This document shows, in pieces, positions 6,845 to 9,591 of a DNA stretch of 37,015 nucleotides. A model generated the notes under the pieces. That model was not told the DNA's origin, made no database searches, and saw nothing but the letters and a program-made list of their open reading frames with translations. A program made the position numbers and the translations under genes. The stretch is from Nitrospirae bacterium JdFR-86 (GTDB lineage: Bacteria > Nitrospirota > Thermodesulfovibrionia > Thermodesulfovibrionales > JdFR-86). The stretch spans positions 73,943 to 110,957 of the forward strand of contig MTOV01000024.1 in the NCBI GenBank assembly GCA_002011815.1. The letters run 5' to 3'. Each line of letters begins with the position of its first letter. Position 1 is the first letter of the stretch.

Positions 6845-7075
6845 ATGGGACCACGCATATACCTGAGAGTCGGTGACAAGGTTAGACACCTGAAATACAA
6901 AAGGTGGGGGACAGGCGAGGTCATCGAGGAAAAACACTCCACACTGGCAGGCGGTTGCTGTCTCGTAAGAATCATGTTTGAAGACGGTATAGAAAGGGCA
7001 TTTATTAATGATATGGATAACGCCCTTTGCTGTTACTATGCAGGAGTCAGACTTCTTAATGAGACTGTGCTTTAA
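6845..7075 (+). CDS. DUF3553-like small protein
   Basis: 76 residues starting with VGDKVRHLKYKRWGTGEV, the opening of DUF3553-type Tudor/SH3-like folds, also seen at the C-terminus of PcrA/UvrD helicases where they contact RNA polymerase. Short strands follow (CCLVRIMFEDG, ERAF), with a CC pair in the middle. The family link is by pattern only. The coding frame is followed after two bases by ogt, so the two are almost certainly one unit, which hints at a DNA-repair or transcription role. There is no Shine-Dalgarno. Confidence 0.6.
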   Translation: MGPRIYLRVGDKVRHLKYKRWGTGEVIEEKHSTLAGGCCLVRIMFEDGIERAFINDMDNALCCYYAGVRLLNETVL

Positions 7076-7645: not shown

Positions 7646-7698
7646 TTGACAAGAATGATTCTTATATGATATTTTATTTTTGTTAAGAATTATTCTAA
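7646..7698 (+). promoter_or_regulatory. fur promoter with two AGAAT-N-ATTCT palindromes (PerR/Fur-box-like)
   Basis: TTGACA (7646-7651) is a consensus -35 with GATATT (7668-7673) as a likely -10. A perfect 13-bp palindrome AAGAATGATTCTT covers 7651-7663. A second, AGAATTATTCT, covers 7686-7696 and abuts the ATG at 7698. The centres are 34 bp apart. Both resemble the PerR/Fur family box with arms around one central base. One overlaps the promoter spacer and one the translation start, which predicts autorepression. Confidence 0.65.
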
Positions 7699-8099
7699 TG
7701 AAGAGGTACAGGAAGATAGGGTTCAAACTCACTCCCCAGAGACTTGCAATACTCGATTGTCTTGAAGGCAATACATCGCATCCTTCTGCGGAGGACATCT
7801 ACCGGAGGCTGAAAAAGAAATTTCCCACAATGTCCTTTGCAACTGTTTATAACACCCTTGACGCATTGACCAGAAAAGGCGAAATACTTGAGATTACAAT
7901 CGATCCGGAAAGAAAACGCTACGACCCGAACACTCAACCGCACCACCACCTCATATGCAATAAGTGCAAAAAAATCGTTGATGTCACCATTAACTTCAAA
8001 GTAACCATTCCGGAAAGATTCAGAAGGTCTTTTGAGATACTCGGCAACCACATAGAGTTTTACGGTTTATGCCGCGAGTGTAAAAAGAAAGGAGGCTGA
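7698..8099 (+). CDS. Fur/PerR-family metalloregulator
   Basis: 133 residues from the ATG at 7698; an in-frame TTG at 7680 would add six residues but lies inside the control region. The winged helix has FKLTPQRLAILDCLE and FATVYNTLDALTRKGEI, the usual recognition helix. The dimerisation domain has the metal-site signature QPHHHLICNKCKK and a second pair CREC near the end, giving the structural Zn(Cys)4 site. It senses iron or peroxide in the cytoplasm. PerR and Fur cannot be told apart safely; the AT-rich boxes and the lack of other Fur genes nearby slightly favour PerR. It begins a unit with the next two Cys-rich genes. Confidence 0.9.
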   Translation: MKRYRKIGFKLTPQRLAILDCLEGNTSHPSAEDIYRRLKKKFPTMSFATVYNTLDALTRKGEILEITIDPERKRYDPNTQPHHHLICNKCKKIVDVTINFKVTIPERFRRSFEILGNHIEFYGLCRECKKKGG

Positions 8100-8102
8100 A
8101 TT

Positions 8103-8546
8103 ATGGATTACACCATGAGCTGCGAATGCAACTCAAGAGAGGCAGGCTTTGATTTCAAGGACGGTATTATGCCTCCGGAGGTAATAAACAGGCTTTACTG
8201 TCCGGAGTGCTCAAAGGAGCTGGCATTCAACCCTGAGACCATGATTGCAGACAACGGATGGGTTATCGAATACGACATGGATGTCGCAGAGTTCTCCGCT
8301 GCCAAACTACCACCCACTTTAAGAGAGAATTTATCTCCTGAAATACTATTTGACAAAGGATACGCAACATGGTGCGGTATACACCCTGATGATCACTTCG
8401 TAAGCATATGCGAAAAGGCAGCACTTGCCAGGCTTGCAGAGGTTGATCCAGAAGGCTATGCCGAAAAAATGAAGACATGGTCTTCACAGAGAATAAAACG
8501 CCTTAAAGAAGAAGGCTGGAGGAAAGCAAATGAACAAAGAGTTTAA
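8103..8546 (+). CDS. Cysteine-rich protein of unknown function, in Fur/PerR unit
   Basis: 147 residues, no family recognised. There are three cysteine groups: SCECNS at the N-terminus, a zinc-ribbon-like YCPECSKE near residue 40, and TWCGIHPDDHFVSIC near residue 100. The C-terminal part is a basic helix (SSQRIKRLKEEGWRK). AAAGGAGG lies about eight bases before the ATG. It starts three bases after the fur stop codon and overlaps the next small gene by 17 nt, so all three are co-transcribed and probably under the same metal or peroxide control. A metal-binding or redox function is an inference. Confidence 0.7.
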   Translation: MDYTMSCECNSREAGFDFKDGIMPPEVINRLYCPECSKELAFNPETMIADNGWVIEYDMDVAEFSAAKLPPTLRENLSPEILFDKGYATWCGIHPDDHFVSICEKAALARLAEVDPEGYAEKMKTWSSQRIKRLKEEGWRKANEQRV

Positions 8547-8706
8547 GAAAAAACCGACACCCCCGGAGAAATTCACCCCGTTACTTTCCATAGTGGTTAC
8601 CTGCCCGAAGTGCGGGTTAAACATAGAACTATGGAACGACGAGGATGAAACAGTATGCAAATTCTGTGGGTATGCGGTGTTCAAACACGAAAAAACAATA
8701 AACTAA
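8530..8706 (+). CDS. 58-residue zinc-ribbon protein
   Basis: The small frame begins at an ATG inside the end of the preceding gene (17-nt overlap in another frame) and runs to TAA at 8704-8706. It encodes a two-CxxC zinc ribbon: TCPKCGLNIELW and VCKFCGYAVF. The ribbon spacing is like that of rubredoxin-type and Zn-finger stand-alone proteins. It has a basic N-terminus (KEFKKKPTPPEK). Translational coupling and co-location with the Cys-rich gene and fur suggest joint expression. Partner and role are unknown. Confidence 0.6.
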   Translation: MNKEFKKKPTPPEKFTPLLSIVVTCPKCGLNIELWNDEDETVCKFCGYAVFKHEKTIN

Positions 8707-8730: not shown

Positions 8731-9591
8731 ATGTCCGCTGAGGTCGAGAAAAACCTTAAGGCTACCGTAGAGTATCTTTCCGTCGAGATAGGGCAAAGGA
8801 GCTACCTTGACATTGACAAGCTCAATGCCTCAGCGGGATACATAGAGGATAGACTCTCCTCATGCGGGCTGAAAATCCGAAGACAGGAATTCTCCTATGA
8901 AGGCAACACTTACTACAACATAATCGGGGAAAAAGAAGGTGATGAAGACGAAGCGGCATTAATCATAGGGGCTCATTACGACACAGTCATCGGCACGCCC
9001 GGCGCTGATGACAATGCAAGCGGAGTTGCAGGACTCCTTGAAATCGCAAGACTTTCCATGCACATGCCGTCGAAAAGACCATTAAAATTCGCTGCCTTCT
9101 GCCTTGAAGAGCCTCCCCACTTCAGAACAAGCAAGATGGGAAGCTTCGTTTATGCAAAAAGCCTGAAAGAGCAGAAAGCCAAAGTCTTCGGAATGATTTC
9201 CCTTGAGATGATAGGCTTTTACACAGAAAAGGAAGGCTCACAATTCTACCCTCTTCCTTTCTTCAGATGGTTTTATCCGGACAAAGGCAACTTCATAGCC
9301 TTTGTGGGAAACCCTGCATCAAAGAGATTCACAAAGGCGATGGAAAAAGCCTTCAGAAACGCCTCGGACCTTCCTGTAGAATCCCTGAACGCCCCGTCCG
9401 TTGTCCCAGGGGTGGATTTCTCAGACCACAGCTCTTTCTGGAAAATGGGCTACCACGCATTCATGATTACGGATACGGCTTTCTACAGAAATCCCAACTA
9501 CCACGCCTCCGGTGATACAGCCGACACACTCAACTATAAAAACATGGCTAAACTCGTAACAGGACTCAGCAAGATAATATGCACAATATAA
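8731..9591 (+). CDS. M28-family zinc aminopeptidase
   Basis: 286 residues. The zinc-binding pattern of M28 peptidases is present: GAHYDTVIGTPGADDNASG (His, then the bridging Asp), CLEEPPHF (catalytic Glu followed by metal ligand Glu), LEMIGFY, and FSDHSSFWKMG with the distal His. M28 enzymes remove N-terminal residues from peptides. There is no signal peptide or lipobox, so it is predicted to be cytoplasmic, although some relatives are exported. No clear Shine-Dalgarno precedes the ATG; the frame gives no better choice. Confidence 0.85.
   Translation: MSAEVEKNLKATVEYLSVEIGQRSYLDIDKLNASAGYIEDRLSSCGLKIRRQEFSYEGNTYYNIIGEKEGDEDEAALIIGAHYDTVIGTPGADDNASGVAGLLEIARLSMHMPSKRPLKFAAFCLEEPPHFRTSKMGSFVYAKSLKEQKAKVFGMISLEMIGFYTEKEGSQFYPLPFFRWFYPDKGNFIAFVGNPASKRFTKAMEKAFRNASDLPVESLNAPSVVPGVDFSDHSSFWKMGYHAFMITDTAFYRNPNYHASGDTADTLNYKNMAKLVTGLSKIICTI

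Follow-up and report, generated by a model that had tools for sequence, protein, structure and literature searches.

In anaerobes, PerR operons are commonly interpreted as units of rubrerythrin, flavodiiron protein and superoxide reductase. The perR-rbr-roo operon of Geobacter and the perR-rbr-rdl operon of Desulfovibrio vulgaris bring a PerR-like regulator together with rubrerythrin and a flavodiiron/Roo or rubredoxin-like protein (PMC545781). In Clostridioides difficile, the rbr-perR-sor-CD0828 operon is repressed by PerR and includes an accessory rubredoxin-domain protein, whose possible role in donating electrons to Rbr and Sor has been investigated (PMC11980386).

The locus described here lies in a stretch of 37,015 nucleotides from Nitrospirae bacterium JdFR-86, positions 73,943 to 110,957 of contig MTOV01000024.1 (hereafter the window), and reads, from 5' to 3', -35, box 1, -10, box 2, perR, p147 and zr58. 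Like the Geobacter and D. vulgaris operons, it has a palindrome at the promoter and apparent local autoregulation, but its box (AGAAT-N-ATTCT, in two copies 34 bp apart) is unlike the sites tabulated for those organisms, scavenging enzymes are absent from its operon, and neither p147 nor zr58 is listed for those operons in the accessible part of PMC545781. The C. difficile operon resembles it as an anaerobe's PerR operon with an accessory protein; CD0828, however, is a rubredoxin/glutamate-synthase-like fusion (PMC11980386), whereas neither p147 nor zr58 matches such a family. The kind of system is familiar; its two small proteins are undescribed in anything we searched, the literature search having returned no description of the pair. 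Our best reading is that this is a known kind of PerR oxygen/peroxide defence cassette with two undescribed accessory Cys4 proteins, whose function we infer. That perR-p147-zr58 is a PerR-autoregulated operon, and that p147 and zr58 are accessory to reductive O2/peroxide defence, we consider rather probable.

The regulator and its operator

The perR gene (7698-8099, forward strand) encodes a Fur-family regulator of 133 amino acids with a PerR signature. The product matches PF01475 at 101.8 bits against a cut-off of 23.1 (E 3.6e-29), and its best solved relative is B. subtilis PerR, 2fe3 (E 2.5e-27). Alignment to B. subtilis PerR, the aligned part of which agrees with the PDB sequence 2fe3, places H28, D76, H82, H84, D95 and N52 of the window protein at His37, Asp85, His91, His93, Asp104 and Asn61, of which the first five are the regulatory ligands and the last is a recognition-helix residue, with roles as described (PMC4866751, PMC8638851). 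The structural CxxC...CxxC zinc site is present as C87, C90, C125 and C128, and all regulatory and structural metal ligands are common to the window protein and B. subtilis PerR (PDB 2fe3, 2rgv, 3f8n). The residues at the Asn61 and Asp104 positions tell PerR from Fur (PMC8638851, PMC4866751). Asp occupies the latter position in the aligned p147-linked regulators, while L072, the one further Fur-family protein detected in this genome, carries Arg and Glu at the two positions. With PerR-type residues in one and Fur-type residues in the other, we assign the window protein as the genome's PerR and L072 as the Fur type, H2O2 sensing by the former being predicted from its residues; the autoregulated Fur/PerR unit proposed in the initial annotation can in this way be narrowed to PerR. 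The score against the best NCBIfam PerR equivalog model (127.5 bits) is below the cut-off of 180, which we do not take as defining because these models are clade-specific.

The initial annotation had also pointed to two palindromes over the promoter and start codon, and these proved to be exact. AGAATGATTCT at 7652-7662 and AGAATTATTCT at 7686-7696 are the sole exact matches to AGAAT-N-ATTCT in the window, where 0.08 would be expected by chance and none of 100 shuffles had two. Extended to 17 bp, the predicted PerR boxes occupy 7649-7665 (ACAAGAATGATTCTTAT; matrix score 21.1 bits) and 7683-7699 (TTAAGAATTATTCTAAT; 20.7 bits), both on the forward strand. Box 1 overlaps the -35 element and the spacer; this element, TTGACA at 7646-7651 (forward strand), was found by consensus scan, and TTGACA adjoins a box in most perR promoters of relatives. 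A probable -10, GATATT at 7668-7673 (forward strand), was recognised by comparison with relatives' promoters, where it reads GATAAT. Box 2 lies over the inferred transcription start and touches the start codon (ATG at 7698); perR lacks a ribosome-binding site, and its predicted leader is just some 15 nt long. The B. subtilis PerR operator, TTATAATNATTATAA (PMC545781), compares with AAGAATNATTCTTA in the window.

This promoter architecture recurs across Nitrospirota. In a comparison of 36 perR promoters, taken mostly from p147-linked loci, the recurrent pattern is CTTGACAAGAAT-N-ATTCTAA ... TGATAAT ... AAGAAT-N-ATTCTAA, and the exact 34-bp spacing occurs in more than a dozen; some relatives have a single recognisable box and a few have none. 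Across the whole JdFR-86 genome, the 17-bp pattern is matched exactly three times, twice at the perR promoter and once inside a gene. Two pattern searches that allowed one mismatch, and that a looser operator could escape, revealed no other convincing PerR operator in the genome. We claim no wider regulon, since the one-mismatch matches outside the perR promoter fall nearly all within genes or between gene ends and are about as numerous as those of a reversed-pattern control. As a separate observation, an additional PerR-type box, TTTAGAAGCATTATTAT, occurs in the window at 196-212 (15.7 bits), some 160 bp upstream of a gene at 374, after which comes a rubrerythrin-like gene (1184-1681); the box lies within or close to the beginning of a divergent HTH gene and is a candidate site only.

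Two small cysteine proteins and their neighbours

The p147 gene (8103-8546, forward strand) starts 3 nt past the perR stop, with a ribosome-binding site, AGGAGG, read at 8090-8095, so that the Fur-family gene is followed by a 147-residue protein as originally described. Homologues occur in 66 of 296 genomes of Nitrospirota, the phylum that provides the nearest relatives of p147, and in 41 loci of a species-level collection, Desulfobacterota among them. An alignment of 46 sequences has 17 invariant columns, including C7, C9, C33, C36, W53, F83, D84, W90, W126 and G138-W139-R140. Of the three cysteine groups first noted in p147, those that form the C-x-C...C-P-x-C site are therefore invariant, while the third, C92 and C104, is not conserved and is mostly replaced by other residues in homologues. 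Beyond single chance matches, the 46 members have no Pfam or NCBIfam family match, and p147 has no PDB sequence match. Its model is confident (pLDDT 94, pTM 0.84), with strands in the N-terminal four-cysteine part followed by long helices; it has no fold match in the PDB or in viral models, and no catalytic site is recognisable.

The zr58 gene (8530-8706, forward strand) overlaps the end of p147 by 17 nt and has a ribosome-binding site, GGAGG, at 8518-8522, also read from the sequence. The 58-residue zinc ribbon proposed for this frame is conserved: its four cysteines are invariant in 31 homologues. The window copy lacks an extra N-terminal Cys that is frequent among family members. The protein is closer to the zinc ribbons of LysW, RNA polymerase subunits and TFIIB than to rubredoxin, matches to which are weak (E 0.006) and rank behind LysW and RPB12-type zinc ribbons; the bound metal cannot be told from sequence. 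The zr58 model, at a pLDDT of 73, does not allow a fold to be assigned firmly. A homology between p147 and zr58 was not accepted, because the two have only a CPxC knuckle in common. In most Nitrospirota loci, zr58 homologues, called by profile, come after p147, sometimes in two copies. The small frame is thus conserved and the p147-zr58 pair is linked to perR in other genomes, the two points on which the initial annotation stood or fell. An M28-family peptidase gene (8731-9591, forward strand; PF04389, E 5.3e-28) starts 24 nt after zr58 with no evident ribosome-binding site and may be the last gene of the transcript; its membership of the operon is uncertain because it has no match in other p147 loci.

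In 40 re-fetched Nitrospirota p147 loci, surveyed up to 6 kb on each side with families confirmed on representatives, perR was found in 30, zr58 in 29, rubrerythrin in 26, flavodiiron protein in 23, peroxiredoxin in 19 and superoxide reductase in 16, with ferritin-like protein (8) and hemerythrin (7) as minor neighbours. By map inspection, 39 of the 40 contain one or more of the four scavengers rubrerythrin, flavodiiron protein, superoxide reductase and peroxiredoxin. The initial annotation had placed both small proteins under metal or peroxide control, and it is these four neighbours that favour peroxide over general metal control, with PerR control itself predicted from sequence. A rubredoxin-tailed protein and FMN reductase are also recurrent in p147 loci. 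One locus (L103:6725-7201) encodes a protein of 159 amino acids whose undescribed N-terminal part precedes a C-terminal rubredoxin domain; in several Nitrospirota loci, genes for proteins of this type lie between zr58 and those of the scavenging enzymes.

Relatives' cassettes include rubrerythrin, flavodiiron protein or superoxide reductase in the operon; the window has the PerR-type palindromes at the perR promoter that mark such anaerobe PerR operons but none of these enzymes, and we therefore file it as a reduced relative rather than a full member. In this genome of 2.1 Mb, rubrerythrins and a flavodiiron gene are located elsewhere, no boxes were found at their promoters, and neither superoxide reductase nor the 1-Cys-Prx C-terminal domain was found. 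Between serS and an O6-methylguanine methyltransferase gene, the window also contains a 76-residue frame (6845-7075) that weakly resembles the PcrA/UvrD tudor domain (E 0.007).

None of the five other genomes of the window's family has p147, for which either loss or transfer would be an explanation. A PerR relative is present in two of them, and the other three have at most a distant Fur protein; since the first two keep such a relative without p147, PerR can work without it. The perR and p147 distances correlate (r 0.69, p 0.001), as shared species history alone could bring about. In one same-family genome that has no p147, the PerR relative is divergent from a gene named by eye as NuoE-like (L139:1492-2154 and 2154-2693), an arrangement suggesting that an NADH-linked or hydrogenase complex is under PerR control in that genome.

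In Desulfobacterota, p147 lies away from perR, beside unrelated genes. A matrix trained only on Nitrospirota perR promoters was used to scan the 200 bp upstream of genes in these loci, and boxes of at least 7.5 bits were found at 11 of 27 p147 promoters and at none of 121 promoters of other genes from the same loci (Mann-Whitney p 2.7e-8, or 5.9e-7 without near-duplicates, values that are optimistic as the loci are related). These boxes, often 110-120 bp before the start codon, are as Fur-like as PerR-like, the two types being indistinguishable there. Even so, p147 tends to stay under a Fur-family box when away from perR. In Desulfobulbales (L051, L057, L059, L061-L064, L066) the gene order is steady, with p147 between YgiQ-like radical SAM and D-alanyl-D-alanine carboxypeptidase-like genes, these neighbours having been named by eye.

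Possible roles of p147 and zr58

The promoter anatomy suggests a model in which PerR loaded with Fe(II) or Mn(II) would bind both boxes and silence perR-p147-zr58, one box blocking the -35/-10 region and the other the transcription start. Judging from the PerR residues, H2O2 would oxidise the metal-binding histidines, PerR would be released and the operon transcribed, with co-induction of p147 and zr58, both small Cys4 proteins. These would most likely have an accessory function, in the delivery of electrons to, or the upkeep of metal in, rubrerythrin, flavodiiron protein or superoxide reductase. In this genome, the cassette would be reduced to the regulator and the two undescribed proteins. 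Electron transfer or metal supply is our first choice of role and a zinc/thiol switch the second, the D. vulgaris system (PMC545781) being among the analogies; for p147, electron transfer or metal handling is suggested by the neighbours and the Cys4 site. A strict partner role is weakened because p147 occurs on its own in Desulfobacterota, and because in this genome the pair is retained apart from scavenging enzymes; it is the persistence of the pair in this genome that weakens the partner model most.

These same two observations speak for a reading in which p147 and zr58 would be PerR-controlled thiol/zinc switches or nucleic-acid binders, which tune expression or protect proteins during oxidative stress instead of serving scavenger enzymes, and the greater resemblance of zr58 to LysW, RNA polymerase and TFIIB zinc ribbons than to rubredoxin points the same way. 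We nevertheless regard such a function as possible but somewhat doubtful, given the strong linkage to rubrerythrin and flavodiiron genes in Nitrospirota and the fact that no DNA- or RNA-binding family was recognised in Pfam or NCBIfam. It is improbable that the regulator is a Fur responsive to iron or another metal, with p147 and zr58 taking part in iron/zinc homeostasis rather than peroxide defence. The AGAAT-N-ATTCT boxes are admittedly close to Fur boxes, those upstream of p147 in Desulfobacterota (e.g. ATAATAATTATTATTAA and ATAAGAATGGTTATCAT) are Fur-like, and both proteins have a Cys4 site; this explanation is nonetheless at odds with the Asn61- and Asp104-type residues of the window protein and p147-linked regulators, respectively, with the separate Fur-type protein of the genome, and with the O2/ROS enzymes that are the recurrent neighbours.

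Because the trio stands beside O2- and peroxide-destroying enzymes in dozens of relatives, p147 and zr58 are probably new parts of the oxygen survival of anaerobes. More tentatively, p147 may found a new metalloprotein fold that acts in the reductive O2/peroxide defence of Nitrospirota and Desulfobacterota and has zr58 for a redox or metal partner, PerR controlling only the pair in this genome; if this is true, the p147-zr58 pair would be a peroxide response of its own here. As an annotation-free family with a confident model that matches no solved fold, a regular companion of PerR units in one phylum that often keeps the box in another, p147 is a concrete candidate, amenable to testing, for a component missing from current accounts of how anaerobes and microaerophiles tolerate oxygen.
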